DNA from: Bordetella sp. LUAb4 | Lineage (GTDB): Bacteria; Pseudomonadota; Gammaproteobacteria; Burkholderiales; Burkholderiaceae_B | Assembly: GCF_021325795.1 (NCBI RefSeq) | Contig: NZ_JAHPZX010000007.1 | Span: 124,001-188,000 of the forward strand | DNA length: 64,000 bases | Direction of reading: 5' to 3' | Shown: piece after piece, positions 47,991 through 56,150 of the stretch | Layout: every line of letters begins with the position of its first letter | Numbering within the stretch: position 1 is the first letter of the stretch | The notes under the pieces: model-generated | What the model saw: only the letters and a program-made list of their open reading frames with translations | Databases searched by the model: none | What the model was told of the DNA's origin: nothing | Program-made: the position numbers and the translations under genes

Positions 47991-49217
47991 ACCGCCTTGT
48001 AGCTGGCTAAGCAACGGCAGGGCGGTCACCTCGGATCGCGTTCCGTCGAATTTTTCGCGCTTAAGAACGGCTATGGTCGCCGGCAATGTGGCGACACAAG
48101 CGGGTCGACCTGCGCCGATCCTATTCCGCGCGACGTCCCGGCTGGCCTGGTATACCGGGCATTTCAGGCGCTGTGCCTCCCGATGCCGCCAGGCGCTTGC
48201 CGGCCTCTACTCGAACAGACGTCTTGACCGCCTCCGGCGGCGCAGCGACCCAAGCTCGATGGCTTGGCGGTGACCGATATCGGCCATCTGTTGCCTTTCG
48301 ATATCATGACCCGATTTCGGTCCAATACAGCCATAAAAGCGCTGCCAACCACGACGCAGTATCCGATTACACCGCCGCGCAGGCCCGACAGAACCGTAGA
48401 TCCAGAAACCGATAGGGGCTTCATGAGAGGGATTTGGCTGTATTAAACAACGAGACGCGATAACCCACCTCAAGTGTGCTGAGCGCCACATCTAGATAGG
48501 GAAATATCAAGTTGGCGTCAGTGGAAACTAGTGCGGACGGTTGAAAACCTCGGCAGTACTGCAGGCCCGTAGCAGATTCTCCACGGCAACTTCATTGCAA
48601 CGCTAATTTTGGCGCCAGCTTACGTCGAGCACGATATCAGCGGCGCGCCACCATTGGCGCTCCTAGAGAAGCGAACTGCCACAATAACCGATGCTATCAA
48701 ACATTGTTACGCAGTTGTGCCGCTTCCAGAGGATCTACTGAATGGAGCTGCAGTTCTGAGCGACTTCCATAACCCGTTTGTGCACCGCAGAGAAGCAGAC
48801 GATCCGGGCATGATTGGCCGGCGAATTCGGAATCGCAGGTTACCCCGAGAATGATTCTTGAACAGGCCGCGCGAGGCGTTTTGGTCATATTCGGATTCTT
48901 CTGTTATCCATTCGATCCCCCATTGCAGTCTTAAACCGCAAGCGGTCGGTTGCTGAAGGACGGCCAGGTGCCATCGTCCTTAACCGCCTACTGAGCTATC
49001 GCATTGGAAGAAGCAACTAAGCCGACTGACCTGTCGTTCCAAGCGCAACCATCAACTCCCGATCGACTAGCGCTGAAAGACGTTCATGTTAGGCGCGACG
49101 CAGCCTAGATGGGACATGAGCGCGCTATCAGACCGGGAAATGTCCTTGATATCATTAACATTCAGGCGATTTCATCTACACTTTGCACCGAACTACGATC
49201 TCAACAGGCCGAAAACG
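47991..49217. other. 1.2-kb gene-poor junction at the island edge
   Basis: Only short frames without recognisable homology. GC content falls along it towards the TIR gene, which suggests the chromosome/island boundary lies here. A 15-base segment at about 48624 (TACGTCGAGCA-C-GAT) resembles the 50840 segment at the inner end of the retron-like RNA with one mismatch. No tRNA or att core was recognised. Confidence 0.5.
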
Positions 49218-50366
49218 ATGAGCGAGCATCAAATTTTTCTAAGCTATGGAAGCCCGGATCTTGCACAAGCCCGGACGCTCTATAATCGACTCAAAGCTCG
49301 GGGGCTAAACGTCTGGTTCGATAAAGAGGAATTGCTTCCTGGTCAGCGTTGGGACTTCGAAATTAAGCGTGCGCTTAGACAGTCTGACATTGTCCTGTTC
49401 TTGGTATCAAGCTCCTCTATTGAGCGCAGAGGTTACGTTCAACGGGAGATGAAACTGGCTATTAATCATTTAGAAGAAAAACTTCCTGGGGACATATATG
49501 CGATTCCCATTCTTTTAGACAAGGGCGTCAAGCTGGAAGGCCCTCTGAGTGATATCCAGTACATTTCCGCCAACGAAGCTGGTTTTGAAGATGTACTAGT
49601 TAGTGCCATCGAGAAGCAACTGAGCAATTTAGGGCACGATATAGCACAGACGGAAGAGCATCAGGAAGTCCGAATGTCTAAACGTCAAGTGCGAGAAAAT
49701 TGGGAGGGCCTCCCGGGTTATGACGTGGAATACTGGCTTCCTCAATTTCAATCCAACGTTTACTCGAGTTTGCAAGAGATCACCACGCTTATTGAAAGTG
49801 AGTTCCTGGCAATTCGACTGGCGCATCGAAAACAGAAACTTACCCAAGATACAAATGTATATCACTGGTCTGATCCGTCGTATCGTAGGACAAACTCATT
49901 CAGTGCAAATATCCTTGAGTATCGAGTGGTTGGTCGCCTTTTGTCGATTGTTTTTATACTTGATTTTTATGGTGCCGGTGCGGCTCACTCAAATTATGGC
50001 TTTAAAATATTCAATTTTTTTCTTAACCCTTTATGCCTGATCGATAATCTTAGGGGTGTCTTCGCGGATGAGGAAATCGCGTTTCCGCATTTGCAGAAAC
50101 TTATTCGAGAGTCACTAAAAAAGTCCCTTCTTGTTGATGAGGGAGAGACCGGTGACGCGGCGTTTATAGAGTGGATCACCGACGGGACAAGCTCTTGGGA
50201 GGACTTCCGTCACTTTTCTTTTTCGGATAAATCGATGTCGATTCACTTTCCACCTTACGCAGTCGCATCTTTCGCAGATGGCCCGCAACGTGCAGAGATC
50301 CCATTGGAGTCTATTCGTCACCTCCTCAGCCGAGATGTCAGGGGCTTCTTGGATATGCCAATGTGA
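49218..50366 (+). CDS. TIR domain fused to a DUF3298/RsiV-like domain
   Basis: 382 residues. N-terminal bacterial TIR domain (about 1-135): HQIFLSYGSPDLAQARTLYNRLKARGLNVWFDKEELLPGQRW with the putative NADase Glu in KEEL, then SDIVLFLVSSSSIERRGYVQREMKLAI. A linker is followed by about 200 residues like DUF3298: LEYRVVGRLLSIVFILDFYGAGAAHSNYGFKIFNF, and near the end IHFPPYAVASFADGPQRAEIPLESIRHLL. DUF3298 is usually extracytoplasmic (RsiV); here there is no signal or membrane helix. Low GC content. Candidate defence protein that depletes NAD upon sensing. Confidence 0.83.
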   Translation: MSEHQIFLSYGSPDLAQARTLYNRLKARGLNVWFDKEELLPGQRWDFEIKRALRQSDIVLFLVSSSSIERRGYVQREMKLAINHLEEKLPGDIYAIPILLDKGVKLEGPLSDIQYISANEAGFEDVLVSAIEKQLSNLGHDIAQTEEHQEVRMSKRQVRENWEGLPGYDVEYWLPQFQSNVYSSLQEITTLIESEFLAIRLAHRKQKLTQDTNVYHWSDPSYRRTNSFSANILEYRVVGRLLSIVFILDFYGAGAAHSNYGFKIFNFFLNPLCLIDNLRGVFADEEIAFPHLQKLIRESLKKSLLVDEGETGDAAFIEWITDGTSSWEDFRHFSFSDKSMSIHFPPYAVASFADGPQRAEIPLESIRHLLSRDVRGFLDMPM

Positions 50367-50449
50367 AGGCCCGTCGTGTGGACGGTCGACGTCGCTTGCC
50401 GCCGTATAAGTGGGGCTGGACCGGTTTGCCGTCCCTACACCAGTTCGTG

Positions 50450-50782
50450 TCACGTGAGCGGCGCAAGTGCATTAATAACCAAGCCGCCATTGAGGCTCTC
50501 TGGGTGTGATGCTGCGGCACCAACTCGTGCGTGGATAATCGCCGAAGTCAACTTGTAGCGAGAGTTGTTAATTCGACGTTGAATTCGCCGTACTTGACGA
50601 GCCGGGTTGTACACCACCCGAAAGGTGCCATCGTTTTTAGGTATTTCGATTCGAGTGTATTTTTCGGCGTTGGGAATTCCTAAGGCGAACTCCAGCTCGT
50701 CAATTCCGATATCTAACGCGCTACACAAGTTCTTTATACTTGCGATGGCGGCGTGTGAAGTCTTAATGGGTGCATTTGTCAT
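50450..50782 (-). pseudogene. Retron-type reverse transcriptase, N-terminal fragment
   Basis: 110 residues from ATG 50782. The first 75 match the start of retron reverse transcriptases: SIKNLCSALDIGIDELEFALGIPN, then YTRIEIPKNDGTFRVVYNPARQVRRIQRRINN (the IPKKDG...RxIxxP...L/VRxIQ block before RT motif 1). After RINN the sequence becomes unrelated and stops at 50450. The palm domain with YADD is absent and not found nearby, so the enzyme is truncated by a deletion. It follows a structured RNA region on the same strand. Confidence 0.75.
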
Positions 50783-50841
50783 GACGTAAATATAGGTCCG
50801 ACCATCCCATACTATAGAGAACAATGAAGAATGTGGTCTAC

Positions 50842-51007
50842 GTCGAGCATGATGCCGGCAACTGCCATTCCTCACTTGGTCGGGCCTATCGTCCAACTCT
50901 CCTCGGGGTCGCGAGGAGACGGAGAGTACGGCCATCCGCACTAGCCTGTCTGTCTGACAAGCGCCCATATCTCTATGGGCAAACGCCAACACTTTGCTTT
51001 GCTCGAC
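50842..51007 (-). ncRNA. Candidate retron msr-msd RNA
   Basis: 166 nt, minus strand, 60 nt before the reverse transcriptase start. The ends are perfect 8-bp inverted repeats, GTCGAGCA (a1, 51007-51000) and TGCTCGAC (a2, 50849-50842). Between them are two strong hairpins: a 7-bp stem GCCCATA with four-base loop (50963-50980) and an 8-bp stem TCTCCTCG with six-base loop (50898-50919). An AAGC follows a1, where retrons keep the branching G. Layout and size match retron RNAs; identity is inferred. Confidence 0.55.
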
Positions 51008-51040
51008 CGCGGCTAGTAGGCGGTACGCTTACGCAGAAAC

Positions 51041-51069
51041 AGAATATGCTAAATTCTATGTAGATGCAA
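51041..51069 (-). promoter_or_regulatory. Promoter for the retron-like RNA
   Basis: Minus strand TTGCAT (51069-51064), 17 bp, TATTCT (51046-51041). The expected start is near 51034, about 27 nt before the a1 repeat. Confidence 0.5.
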
Positions 51070-51137
51070 CATTAAAGCTGAGGCTACGTTTGCACAACGT
51101 GCGCGAAGTTACACCGGTGTGCGTATCCGACCTCAGC

Positions 51138-52097
51138 TTAAGAACTATGCAGTTCAGTTCCCACTCTAGGGTGGTTTGTAATTCCGAAGGGAATATGGAC
51201 TGACGGGACAACCGCGCTGGCAGCCTTTAAGTGTCCGGACTGGTCGTCAAAGAATATGTGTGGTCTTAGGATACCGAGGACTTTGCCCTTTTCAATCCCG
51301 CCTAGAAAGAAAGCATCGTTCGCCATGACTCCCCAACTCTTCAATGTTTTAAGCGCTCGCTCGTGGGAAGGCGCGTTTCGCGCGGTAACGATTGATACCC
51401 GAATCCTATTCTTGTAGTCTGGATTTTGTGTCTTATGCGCTTCTTCTATAGATTGAATTTTCGAAATACGAACCAAAAACTCTTTGAGCGGTCCGGGATT
51501 GTGAGGTTGCATTACATTTTTAACTTCATGATCATGAAACGCATTTAAGCCTGACGTCTGCATGACCGACTCGGATTCGTCTCCCGCCAAAACTCCGTCA
51601 AAATCGAACGCGATGCGCAGAGATTTATCATTATCGTCATCATCAAATTGCGAGTCCAACACTTGGCCGGCTGGGTGGCTAAGTCCGATAGCCGCGTCCA
51701 CGTCTGGTTTGTGGCGCGATAAGAACAGAGCAATGTTTAATGCTGGAATGTACTCATAAGGAGATTGTCCTTGCATGAAGATTGCTCTCGTCATGCTCAA
51801 ACTGTAGTGCTCAATTGTCTTCATAACCCGTAACCCGGTATCGGGATCGTTTCGTGAAAGCAGCACTACTTCGACTAATGGATCGGACGCATCAGGACTA
51901 AGGTCATTGAGTGCCAATAGACGTTTAATGAACGGGTAAGCAATTCCTTTGGGTAGGGGGACATCGAGATTGTGCTCTTGATATTTGCGATATTGCTGCT
52001 CGCCTTGTGTGCGAAATACTGTGTCCGATTCTCTTAGGTCAAATACCGCGCTAGACGCGACGCCAATAACAAGGCGGTTATCAAGTTCATATGCCAC
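51138..52097 (-). CDS. Cytosolic 5'-nucleotidase (NT5C1 family)
   Basis: 319 residues, GTG start at 52097. HAD motif I LRIAFDFDGVLAGDESE near 167, with the DESE that typifies NT5C1 enzymes; also ALNIALFLSRHKPDVDAAIGLSHPAG and DDQSGHLKAA (motif IV). Homologous to vertebrate cytosolic IMP/AMP 5'-nucleotidases. It would dephosphorylate nucleoside monophosphates. Placed upstream of the retron-like RNA on the same strand, in low-GC DNA, so a defence role by nucleotide depletion is conceivable. Confidence 0.87.
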   Translation of the reverse strand: MAYELDNRLVIGVASSAVFDLRESDTVFRTQGEQQYRKYQEHNLDVPLPKGIAYPFIKRLLALNDLSPDASDPLVEVVLLSRNDPDTGLRVMKTIEHYSLSMTRAIFMQGQSPYEYIPALNIALFLSRHKPDVDAAIGLSHPAGQVLDSQFDDDDNDKSLRIAFDFDGVLAGDESESVMQTSGLNAFHDHEVKNVMQPHNPGPLKEFLVRISKIQSIEEAHKTQNPDYKNRIRVSIVTARNAPSHERALKTLKSWGVMANDAFFLGGIEKGKVLGILRPHIFFDDQSGHLKAASAVVPSVHIPFGITNHPRVGTELHSS

Positions 52098-52344
52098 TTT
52101 TTTCTCAAACCTTTTTAAAGTCTATCCGAAAGTGAATCATTAGTTTACTACGTAGTTACATTAAGGTTGCACACTTCTCGATTGGTCGAACTTACCTGAA
52201 TCGGCGATAACGGGCAACTGCCCGAGCGACTATGTAAATGCACGGGCAAGAGCGCCTACTTGACCTGACCCTACCCCGATTTTTAGTCCCGTTCTAAATT
52301 AGAGAAATTCGGCGTAATTTCACGATATGGAAAGGGGCTTTGCC

Positions 52345-52611
52345 ATGAAGCGATCGAAGTACACCGAGGAGCAAATCGCCTTTGCGCTCAAGCAGGCCGA
52401 GCTGGGCACGGCAGTGCCCGAGGTTTGCCGCAAGATGGGCGTAAGCGAAGCGACGTTCTACAACTGGAAGAAGAAGTTCGGCGGCCTGGGGCCGTCCGAG
52501 TTACGGCGGCTGCGCCAGCTGGAAGAAGAATGCAATCGCCTCAAGCGGCTGGTCGCCGACCTGTCGCTGGACAAGGCGATGCTGCAGGACGTTCTGGCAA
52601 AAAAGCTCTGA
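52345..52611 (+). CDS. IS407-type transposase OrfA
   Basis: 88 residues: MKRSKYTEEQIAFALKQAE, helix-turn-helix TAVPEVCRKMGVSEATFYNWKKKFGGL, then leucine-zipper-like LRRLRQLEEECNRLKRLVADLSLDKAMLQDVL. AAGGGG lies upstream of ATG 52345. It ends just after A-AAA-AAG at 52599-52605, a classic -1 slippery heptamer that makes the OrfAB transposase. Confidence 0.93.
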   Translation: MKRSKYTEEQIAFALKQAELGTAVPEVCRKMGVSEATFYNWKKKFGGLGPSELRRLRQLEEECNRLKRLVADLSLDKAMLQDVLAKKL

Positions 52612-53486
52612 AGCCTTGGCGACGCCGCGCGCTCGTGGACGACCTGATGGGGCGCTACGGCGTGGGCGTGACCAAGGCATGTGCCGTGGTGATGATTTCC
52701 CGTTCGCTATATCGCTACGAGTCGTGCCGTCGCGAAAGTGGTGCCCTGGTCATGCGAATCCACGAGATCGCACATACGCGGGTGCACTATGGATACCGGC
52801 GTGTACACGTGATGCTGCGTCGCGAAGGCTACCGAGACAACCATAAGTGGGTTTATCGACTTTACCGCGAGCAGGGCCTGTCGCTACGGCACAAACGCCC
52901 TAAGCGAAACAAGTCGGCGCAACGACGCCAGCCGAAAGCGGTCGCACAGGCGATCAATGACATCTGGAGCATGGACTTCGTGATGGACCAACTATTTGAT
53001 GGCCGCCGGCTGCGTGCGCTGACCTTGGTCGACAACTACACGCGTGAATGCCTAGCCATAGATATCGGACAGAATCTGCGTGGGGACGACGTGGTAGCAG
53101 CCCTGACCCGTGTGTGTGCGACGCGCGGTATTCCGCGGGTCATCAAGGCAGACAATGGCAGCGAATTCATTTCCAAGACCATGGACAAATGGGCATACGA
53201 GAACGGCGTAGAAATCGACTTTAGTCGGCCGGGTAAGCCAACCGATAACGCGCAGTGCGAATCCTTCAACGGACGATTCCGGCAGGAGTGCCTGAACAGC
53301 CATTGGTTCTTGTCATTTGCTGACGCCAAGGAGAAAATTGACACCTGGCGGACGTACTATAACGAGGTTCGTCCCCACTCCGCGCTGAAGTGGCAGGCAC
53401 CTGCCGAATACGCGCGCCAGCGCTTGGCCGACGGCCAAAACGCCAACCTCAATGAGCCGGAAATCTCCACTTCTGATCCGGACTAA
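52599..53486 (+). CDS. IS407-type transposase OrfB (DDE integrase core)
   Basis: About 295 residues read by -1 frameshift from OrfA at 52599-52605. The DDE triad is visible: SMDFVMDQL (Asp), KADNGSEF (Asp) and CESFNGRFRQECL (Glu, 35 residues later). HTH_21 region VHYGYRRVHVMLRREGY near the start. End RPHSALKWQAPAEYARQ is typical. No disruption, so the element may still move. Confidence 0.92.
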   Translation, partial: KKALKPWRRRALVDDLMGRYGVGVTKACAVVMISRSLYRYESCRRESGALVMRIHEIAHTRVHYGYRRVHVMLRREGYRDNHKWVYRLYREQGLSLRHKRPKRNKSAQRRQPKAVAQAINDIWSMDFVMDQLFDGRRLRALTLVDNYTRECLAIDIGQNLRGDDVVAALTRVCATRGIPRVIKADNGSEFISKTMDKWAYENGVEIDFSRPGKPTDNAQCESFNGRFRQECLNSHWFLSFADAKEKIDTWRTYYNEVRPHSALKWQAPAEYARQRLADGQNANLNEPEISTSDPD

Positions 53487-53749: not shown

Positions 53750-55915
53750 CTAGCGACGTCGTCCCTTTCCCCTGAGCGGTTTTGTTGACTCTAGATTCAA
53801 ATATCGCCGTTCGTACTGGTCTAGGACGGCGGCTAGTGCAGTGTCAACAAAGTCATGGTTGTCAGGTTTTCGCAGCTTGCCAAGAACGCGTTGGAAAAAT
53901 TTCTGGGACAACCTGACAACGAGTTTTTTCTGGGTCGTGTAGATCTCGCGGACCCAATCGAGCTCTGATCCGTTGCGCAACGCTTCATCGTCATCTCTAG
54001 TGATAAGGAAACCTAGACGCCCGTACGCGCCATTCAGATATGTCGACATTTGCCTATACTCATCCCGAGCCACGCCGGCATAGTTTTTCACCTCAAAAAC
54101 GACCTGCCGAACCCCGTAGTCTTTTTCAATTCTTCCCCAGGCGGTGCTACGCGCCAAATTGGTTCCAATGATGTCACGTCGCTGGACCGCCATCCCATTC
54201 GCTTTGAGCTCAACATTGCCTAAATGCCCGGCGAAAACTGCTTGAACGGCAGTTAGTGCCCACTGTTCAAAATCGTTGTGGGGACCGAAGCCAGTCTCGA
54301 TCGTGCCGAGTTCAGCGATAAGACTTCCAATGCGTTGTGCGCGCAGCTCGGGCGAACTGGAGGTAACTTTAATTTCGTATTCATCATTAATCTGTTCCGC
54401 CTCCGCCGGCGCAAGCGCATCGCGTGTCAGATTAAGTGCAATCCAATAACAGGGATGGACGAGTATGCGATCACCCGGAACAAATTCTCTCTCTGCTTGT
54501 CGACCATCGTGACAGAACGTAAAGCTGTTGGATACTTCGTCATGTGTACCGAGAAATCCCACGCTATACAACGCCCTGAGGACGCCATCACTTTTGAGTA
54601 TCACGTAATCTTGCTGGGCGGCCGCACTGGCGCCCGCGGCGGTCATTGCAGCAGGTAGATCGTCTAGCACTCCGAGAGCATCCCCATAACTCAACTCTGG
54701 ACTGCCATGCTCGAACATCGAGACGGCGATCGGCAGCGAAGGGATGGCAGAACTGTATTCTTTCTTAAGATCACTGAGTCTGGTAGCGGAAATCGCCTTT
54801 GCTGTGCTCTCCACATCTTTAAGCACAATCGTTGAGCGATCTTCCTTGCCAGCATTGAAGAACGCGTGGTTCAAAAGCGAAAGAAGATCGCGCGGTCGAT
54901 ACAACGTAAACTGCAAACACTTTTTAAACCCATCCAGGCCTTGCAGTTCCCGACCGACACCCTCGTCCGCCGTGCATCGATCCCAAATTCGCTGCGCCTT
55001 TTCGAGGCCTAACGAAAAGGCCGAATTTAGCCGGCGCGCGACTAGAGTTTGTAGCTGATGCGTATCCCAATGAATTGTAAGAATCTCGCCCTCGATATTG
55101 CGACTGTAATCGGGATCGAATCTTTCCACCGAGCGCAGAATATTGTCACGCTGGAACAACACTGGCCGAATGTGCTCGTGTCGCTTGTTAATCTCCGCCA
55201 CCGCTGAAATGGCGCCAGAAATTATTGCTGCACCCGTCTCGTCGTTCTCGTTCCCTTCGTCCAGGCGGTCAATAAGAATATAAAAACGCACTGCGGCGCT
55301 GCCCATCAGCATCTTAAGCTCGGATTCAAGCGCACTGATGTCAAGCGCGGTGCTCAACGACCCGATAGCTTGCTCCAATTCGTCCTGCCCCTTGATGCAG
55401 GCACTCAACCGATCAGAAAGTTTGCTGAAGTAGTCTCCGGCCTGGGAATTCCATTTCTTCAAATGCTCGGTCGCTAGTTGGCATTGCGCTAGCAACTGCC
55501 TCGTCTTGAAGTGCTTGGCTAGGTGGGCCAACATCTCCATTATGAGGCCATACTTCCACGTCATTCGAGATACCGACCTCACATACGAGTACTTACCGTC
55601 CAAGGGGCGAAACGCAGCTCGAAATCGAATCGTCTGATAGTCCTCAGGCGCTATGGCAATTACATTTGTCGACTTCTGCAAGCTCCAAAAATCCCGTAGC
55701 TTAGCGAACATTGCGCTCTTGCCAGTTCCTCGCCTGCCGACAACTACAGTGCTGTCCTTGGTTTCGAGTAACGAACGGTACTCCGCAGTCTCAACGAAAT
55801 TTCCGATCAGCAGTTTCCCGTCATTCTCAGCAGTCTGCTCGCCTAGCAACGACATGCGCAGCCTGGAAGGTTGAGGAGGTGCCTCCTTCGGTATGGATTT
55901 CTTCTGCAAATGCAT
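53750..55915 (-). CDS. P-loop ATPase with C-terminal PDDEXK (Mrr-like) nuclease
   Basis: 721 residues. Walker A GRRGTGKSA near 60, Walker B FYILIDRLDEG near 220, and VLFQRDNILRSVERFDPDYSRN plus TLYRPRDLLSLLNHAF, which match STAND-like ATPases of the Sll1717 group. The C-terminal domain (about 550-660) FEQWALTAVQAVFAGHLGNVEL, RRDIIGTN and VVFEVKNYAGVARDEYRQMSTYL carries D-x(n)-ExK with a downstream Q, as in Mrr-type restriction nucleases. Likely an anti-phage ATPase-nuclease. Start 55915 (AGGCGG upstream); 55963 is the alternative. GC content is low. Confidence 0.82.
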   Translation of the reverse strand: MHLQKKSIPKEAPPQPSRLRMSLLGEQTAENDGKLLIGNFVETAEYRSLLETKDSTVVVGRRGTGKSAMFAKLRDFWSLQKSTNVIAIAPEDYQTIRFRAAFRPLDGKYSYVRSVSRMTWKYGLIMEMLAHLAKHFKTRQLLAQCQLATEHLKKWNSQAGDYFSKLSDRLSACIKGQDELEQAIGSLSTALDISALESELKMLMGSAAVRFYILIDRLDEGNENDETGAAIISGAISAVAEINKRHEHIRPVLFQRDNILRSVERFDPDYSRNIEGEILTIHWDTHQLQTLVARRLNSAFSLGLEKAQRIWDRCTADEGVGRELQGLDGFKKCLQFTLYRPRDLLSLLNHAFFNAGKEDRSTIVLKDVESTAKAISATRLSDLKKEYSSAIPSLPIAVSMFEHGSPELSYGDALGVLDDLPAAMTAAGASAAAQQDYVILKSDGVLRALYSVGFLGTHDEVSNSFTFCHDGRQAEREFVPGDRILVHPCYWIALNLTRDALAPAEAEQINDEYEIKVTSSSPELRAQRIGSLIAELGTIETGFGPHNDFEQWALTAVQAVFAGHLGNVELKANGMAVQRRDIIGTNLARSTAWGRIEKDYGVRQVVFEVKNYAGVARDEYRQMSTYLNGAYGRLGFLITRDDDEALRNGSELDWVREIYTTQKKLVVRLSQKFFQRVLGKLRKPDNHDFVDTALAAVLDQYERRYLNLESTKPLRGKGRRR

Positions 55916-56150
55916 GAGCCCGCCTTTTGGAGTCAAATTATTCACTGCACTGAAGCTGCCCAACCAGCGGCTGGCGTCGCAGGATGCTGAAAAGCAATGG
56001 CAACGAATTTACCCGTTATTCGGATTTCTCGGGAGGGGTTGCAACTACTAAGGGAATTTCAATGAAGTCGCAGCGAACATCCGTAATGGGTCGGATAGCG
56101 CCCCTCCGTAGGTGCACACTGAATCTCCCTTTACTCAAAAGGAGTGTGTC

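Follow-up and report, generated by a model that had tools for sequence, protein, structure and literature searches.

The locus at 50450-51069 of the window (the whole stretch of 64,000 nucleotides under analysis) is in all likelihood a decayed type IV (Ec48/Eco6-like) retron, in which the reverse transcriptase (RT) has been cut and the RNA looks intact. Type IV (Ec48-like) retrons are a known kind of bacterial anti-phage element; Eco6, Ec48 and type IV are taken by us to be labels for the same kind. As judged from the sequence, membership of both the RNA and the RT fragment in the type IV class is well supported. As a working type IV retron the locus fails, since neither an RT palm, with its catalytic motifs and regions X and Y, nor the two-transmembrane (2TM) effector was found. 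The remnant is most likely dead: with the RT cut before the palm and no effector found, neither msDNA nor defence is expected. The initial annotation had proposed a retron with the order msr-msd-RT, and this order was confirmed by the minus-strand layout, the RT_IV match and the type IV relatives. Its view of a dead retron or RNA-only locus lacking the RT palm also held, as RT homology stops at about residue 76.

The truncated reverse transcriptase

An open reading frame of 110 amino acids on the minus strand starts with ATG at 50782 and ends at 50450. It consists of two parts:

50555-50782, minus strand: RT fragment, the N-terminal ~76 residues of a type IV-like RT (PADLOC RT_IV; profile of five type IV RTs)
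50450-50554, minus strand: 34 unrelated residues and the stop, with a rearrangement junction near 50555 (no RT match)

Residues 5-76 matched the PADLOC model RT_IV at 1.4e-19 (68.5 bits), the next-best PADLOC class reaching 6.9e-9 (33.1 bits), and a profile based on five RTs of this type aligned the fragment with model positions 6-76 of 393. The N-terminal ~75 residues of a retron-type RT, as first described, were thus recovered. The last 34 residues gave no RT match with either RT_IV or the five-RT profile, and Pfam held no family for the 110-residue frame. Since no close relative was found, the class assignment is carried by this match of 72 residues; the best RT matches of the fragment showed 36-45% identity over 50-67 residues.

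The missing parts were sought in the window and in the genome. With the five-RT profile in six frames of the window, no RT palm was detected, the fragment being the single match above the inclusion threshold; a match of 0.44 to the C-terminal part of an RT, at 23635-23471, was taken as chance. Three 2TM effectors, used as tblastn queries at E 1, gave no match in the window. The 2TM_IV model gave no match in the genome, 14 control genomes being silent too, and does match L145 (the pro147 retron, below), L161 and L166. An RT supplied from elsewhere had also been considered, and this idea was not supported: the RT_IV model matched the window fragment alone in the whole genome, and the sole other RT found, with RVT_1, is a group II intron maturase (TIGR04416, 2.3e-124). 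The DNA around the rearrangement junction had no relative in 130 other genomes of the family (49086-50600) and no match in plasmids (50367-50640).

RNA anatomy and its counterparts in type IV loci

Upstream of the RT fragment, the following features were assigned, all on the minus strand:

51041-51069, minus strand: promoter-like pair, TTGCAT (51069-51064), 17 nt, TATTCT (51046-51041); from the sequence, weak
51012-51034, minus strand: H0, 5' leader hairpin TAAGCGTACCGCCTA (51031-51017) with short outer pairs
50984-51007, minus strand: a1, bipartite, outer part GTCGAGCA at 51007-51000 and inner part GTGTTGGCG at 50992-50984
50963-50980, minus strand: msr hairpin SL1 GCCCATAGAGATATGGGC (fold)
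50944-50962, minus strand: msr hairpin SL2 GCTTGTCAGACAGACAGGC, abutting SL1 (fold)
50925-50942, minus strand: hairpin SL3 AGTGCGGATGGCCGTACT (fold)
50893-50922, minus strand: hairpin SL4, core 50918-50899, the last before the putative msd (fold)
50861-50898, minus strand: putative msd template, 32-38 nt, between SL4 and a2 (from the layout)
50877-50889, minus strand: outer helix of a three-way junction, 5' strand
50842-50860, minus strand: a2, inner part TGCCGGCAT at 50860-50852 and outer part TGCTCGAC at 50849-50842; apical loop of the junction's inner stem
50836-50844, minus strand: motif GACGTAGAC at and after the a2 end (alignment A5)
50806-50813, minus strand: AGTATGGG, just before the outer helix 3' strand
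50792-50804, minus strand: outer helix 3' strand, ~10 nt before the RT start codon

Exactly as initially annotated, perfect 8-bp inverted repeats bound a region of 166 nt (51007-50842), and the a2 end is followed after 60 nt by the ATG at 50782. The repeats are part of a bipartite helix in which GTCGAGCA and GTGTTGGCG pair with TGCCGGCAT and TGCTCGAC, and a structured RNA with complementary a1 and a2 lies directly upstream of the RT. Two strong hairpins had been noted between the repeats; hairpins are indeed present there, but four, not two, stand between a1 and the putative msd. As described in PMC6868368, copying of retron RNA starts at a guanosine on the inner side of a1, the msr carries 1-3 hairpins, and the priming guanosine occurs in the contexts TAGC, CAGA, CAGC, GAGC and ACGC. 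By eye, a G is present at the inner end of a1 in the window, and these contexts are not clear there. The msd was placed between the last hairpin and a2 because the same stretch in pro147 is 48 nt long; the Ec48 RT-DNA was reported as 48 bases and found to be three shorter in the study of PMC8989520. That the outer helix is the true a1/a2 pair is considered less likely, since this reading accounts for neither the bipartite helix nor the msr hairpins nor the 48-nt fit of pro147. Rfam gave no match at gathering score for the whole window, and nothing relevant for 50780-51140 at E 10. As the RNA part keeps its full anatomy, loss of the RT was probably recent.

The promoter-like pair of the initial annotation, TTGCAT-17-TATTCT, is present 6-9 nt before H0, but it is weak and absent from the list of a sigma-70 consensus scan of 50300-52400, which gave three other sites, including one at 50840-50811, where 2.4 would be expected. 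At most, the RNA may be transcribed.

The fold of region 50820-51040 was more stable than that of shuffled sequences (z -2.57; 2 of 200 as good). In 400 dinucleotide shuffles of the 265-nt region, the score of the bipartite a1/a2 (12.85) was reached by four and that of the second repeat (50889-50877 with 50804-50792) by three, and no shuffle reached both jointly. Repeats of 8 bp alone are not rare, further ones being present in the window (I13, I15), and the score of H0 alone was reached by 148 of the 400 shuffles, which is not above shuffles. Of 142 control upstream regions taken from the window, 2 had a repeat close to the ATG that equalled the outer helix in score. Upstream of other RTs, repeats near the ATG scoring 10 or more were observed in 5 of 22 regions and are perhaps their own a1/a2; for this control 24 loci were given and 22 scored, L162 and L164 being skipped for wrong coordinates, with each start set at the first ATG of the frame and the class determined just for L007, L013 and L143. 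At L004-L008 (best class of L007, RT_V), a small open reading frame seems by eye to lie between a structured upstream stretch and the RT.

Relatives of the fragment are few. By tblastn at E 1, the 110-residue protein matched two phage records, both pro147, and one plasmid (Acinetobacter); at default limits no relative was found in plasmids, genome contigs or viral contigs. One weak match was obtained in 5 other genomes of the genus and two in 368 other genomes of the class. The window RNA region had no match in plasmids, and the RNA, present once in the genome, gave no match in 130 further genomes sampled from the family. Among 268 family genomes, 46 carried an RT_IV match at 0.001, the window fragment included; of these matches L007 (best RT_V) and L013 (best RT_VI) were re-classified, and none was used as type IV. 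No RT_IV match at 1e-60 was found in 369 class genomes, the controls being silent too, and the Acinetobacter RT had no match in viral contigs. Among plasmids, 35 and 37 records contained RTs related to those of Acinetobacter and pro147, respectively, of which the Acinetobacter plasmid locus L146 alone was taken further; L147-L153, 99-100% identical to pro147, were left out. The relatives pro147, L146, L154, L161 and L166 fall into RT_IV at 6e-116 to 3e-181 (pro147 RT, 1.1e-176; Acinetobacter RT, 1.4e-133), and L155 is classed as type IV solely through 74% identity to pro147. A 2TM_IV effector stands directly after the RT in all three loci checked (pro147, L161 and L166).

Much of the RNA layout of the window is common to the type IV loci pro147, L154, L155, L146, L161 and L166. 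The relatives with intact RT, inspected for the repeats and hairpins of the initial annotation, carried them in pro147, L154 and L161, and only partly in L166. The distance from the 5' hairpin to the RT ATG is 249 nt in the window, 248 nt in pro147 and 213 nt in L166, and the hairpin core reads GCG-TNC-CGC or similar, with ACG-TTT-CGT in Acinetobacter. RNAalifold on six relatives without the window gave the 5' hairpin and part of SL1 (13 pairs; weak energy, -5.0). In alignment A4, whose 6 distinct rows include the window, H0 has standard pairs in 47 of 54 cells and 4 of 9 pairs are changed on both sides; 28 of 500 shuffles reached this percentage and 26 the score. The bipartite a1/a2 scored 12.85 in the window, 14.3 in pro147, 14.0 in Acinetobacter, 13.4 in L154 and 9.9 in L161, shuffles having been made for the window alone. 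It carries an asymmetric bulge, and its outer part is in another register in pro147. The best a1/a2-like pair of L166 scored 10.1, as high as that of L161, and was excluded from the count because it uses letters of the 5' hairpin. Abutting SL1 and SL2 follow a1 at the same place in all five sequences folded (window, pro147, L154, L161 and L166), with z values of -2.64, -2.62, -1.69, -1.11 and -2.25 for these pieces. At the a2 end GTARRC occupies the same A5 columns in pro147, L154, L155 and L161 (compare GACGTAGAC in the window), and ahead of the 3' strand of the outer helix the A5 rows agree in a GTATGGG-like stretch.

Neighbourhood and alternative readings

The surroundings have the look of a defence island, with genes from different systems side by side. 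Upstream of the RNA lies a nucleotidase gene (51138-52097, minus strand; PF06189, 5.1e-126; PADLOC PDC-S08, 9.8e-139), and on the other side a gene for a TIR_2 and DUF3298 protein (49086-50366, plus strand) is convergent with the RT fragment. Directly behind the nucleotidase stop, a 9-bp inverted repeat (AAGCTGAGG/CCTCAGCTT, 51075-51139, 47 nt between the arms) was observed, which is absent from the list of a terminator scan. Farther away are transposase genes (52327-53486), which we take to be IS3-like, and an integrase-like piece at 56112, below the Pfam cut-off. A Sll1717-family P-loop ATPase (53750-55963), with a sub-threshold match to the anti-phage model DS41_1 and a PD-(D/E)XK trace at E 0.08, is a defence candidate.

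The adjacency of these genes suggested a new retron type with the TIR-DUF3298 protein and/or the 5'-nucleotidase as effector of the retron RNA, and the initial annotation had linked the retron with both the TIR-DUF3298 and the NT5C1 protein. The nucleotidase indeed stands upstream on the same strand and matches PDC-S08, and the TIR gene is next on the other side. However, four retron RT queries at 1e-5 (RTs truncated like that of the window would escape) found no RT in the 80 nucleotidase loci kept of at least 586 relatives, 63 of the 80 with ~6 kb on both sides, and on this ground a tie between nucleotidase and retron is unsupported. Besides the locus of the window, no nucleotidase or TIR gene was found in the RT loci L003-L033 within short flanks of ~1.5 kb; the TIR gene is convergent; and the three type IV loci checked use a 2TM effector. 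The proposed link was thus not upheld, and a new type of this kind is very unlikely.

The undamaged look of the RNA would also fit an RNA that has outlived its RT in an independent role, as a regulatory RNA, a decoy or a template for an RT in trans. This is improbable: the RNA is single copy and gave no match in the 130 further genomes sampled from the family, searches of the genome detected no retron RT, and recent truncation accounts equally well for the intactness; moreover, reverse transcription needs the cognate RT, with exceptions for close relatives, according to PMC6868368. Hardly any credence is given to a chance fold beside an RT fragment, the RNA not being msr-msd. The weak promoter, the score of H0 alone and the 2 of 142 control regions would allow it, but it is opposed by the joint shuffle test (0 of 400) and by the layout and covariation in common with type IV loci. 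A decayed type IV retron remains the preferred reading. Taken by itself the finding is ordinary, as it adds another decayed defence element to a set of defence genes. Its value lies in comparison: the RNA is an independent type IV example, distant from Ec48 in sequence, which helps to establish the anatomy common to the class and draws attention to a covarying helix that joins msd and RT leader.

The junction before the RT and the closest known systems

In intact relatives, the order is 5' hairpin, a1, msr hairpins, msd, a2, leader, RT and then the two-transmembrane effector. In retrons generally, the RT primes from a guanosine at the a1 end and copies the msd into short DNA, and the complex of RT, RNA and DNA restrains the effector until phage infection, in line with the sequestration of a toxic effector by RT, RNA and RT-DNA described in PMC12548924. 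For Ec48, a membrane protein of two helices is the predicted effector, with no toxicity seen in the study that reports this (PMC8989520), and Ec48 compromises membrane integrity (PMC12405507). In the window, a rearrangement would have cut the RT after residue ~76, before the catalytic palm.

Before the RT, the RNA is predicted to form a three-way junction composed of an outer helix of 11-13 bp, an inner stem whose apical loop contains a2, and a small hairpin. A junction of one shape was obtained for the window (z -2.83), pro147 (-6.36), L154 (-3.24) and L161 (-2.97), and a similar one for Acinetobacter (-4.14); the same region of L166 is a simple hairpin (-2.45). The outer helix was reached by none of 150 shuffles in pro147, L154 and Acinetobacter, by 2 of 150 in L161 and by 21 of 150 in L166, where it is just 8 bp long although the locus is otherwise a good example of type IV. 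Alignment A5 has 5 rows, 4 of them distinct and one of them the window; in it, 46 of 48 outer-helix cells are paired, and 8 of 12 pairs are changed on both sides among the 4 distinct rows. Together with the small hairpin, 92.2% of 64 cells are paired and 9 of 16 pairs changed on both sides; the inner stem is excluded from these counts because its register differs between rows. The observed covariation score was reached by none of 500 shuffles, and the number of further pair types by 339 of 500, the latter measure being not above shuffles. The covariation is carried by three distinct arm pairs, as the outer-helix arms of pro147 and L154 are identical. When the structure was slid, 24-41% of cells were paired versus 92%, a comparison in which the register is favoured because the piece ends and the structure were set from folds of the same sequences.

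We tentatively propose that in type IV retrons part of the msd template pairs with the leader just before the RT start codon, with a2 in the apical loop, and that the RNA might switch between the junction form and the a1/a2 form, coupling reverse transcription with RT translation. In the junction form the RT start would be hidden and a2 be busy or kissing a1; in the a1/a2 form the template would be competent. Such a switch, drawn from covariation in few sequences, is a bold reading and less likely than not. Although its retron is dead, the window provides one independent instance of the msd/leader pairing. No paper on an msd/RT-leader helix in retrons was found in the open-access literature searched, and such a covarying helix in type IV retrons would be mildly new.

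Three known systems come closest to the locus. The Acinetobacter towneri plasmid RT_IV locus (AP031567.1, L146) resembles the window in its bipartite a1/a2 and strong outer helix at like places, and differs in an RT of 330 amino acids followed by an IS30 element, with no effector annotated adjacent. In this record (L146:2474-4529), the IS30 stands directly after the RT and is followed by blaNDM-1, and the RT end looks short compared with the 396 amino acids of pro147. L161 and L166, from two genomes of one other genus, share with the window an RT N-terminus identical at 36% (55 residues) and 39% (67 residues) and a 5' hairpin with the identical letters GCGTACCGC; both differ in a full RT and a 2TM_IV effector, and L166 also in a shorter RNA without clear a1/a2 of the window's kind.

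The third is the retron of Escherichia phage pro147 (KR073660.1), a phage presumably P2-like. An AbiP2-class defence RT stands beside this retron (L145:385-1929; PADLOC, 5.1e-160). The pro147 retron is very probably Ec48 (Retron-Eco6), type IV, because Ec48 is placed by PMC8934634 in E. coli DE147, with equal RT length and an AbiP2 neighbour; against this identity, the pro147 record names the host DE048. The pro147 retron differs from the window in its own full RT of 396 amino acids (gene of 1191 bp) and its 2TM effector, neither of which was found in the window. The likeness lies in the RT N-terminus, 43.6% identical over 55 residues, and in the same order of parts, with the 5' hairpin, a1/a2 and a three-way junction with the AGTATGGG hairpin before the RT start.
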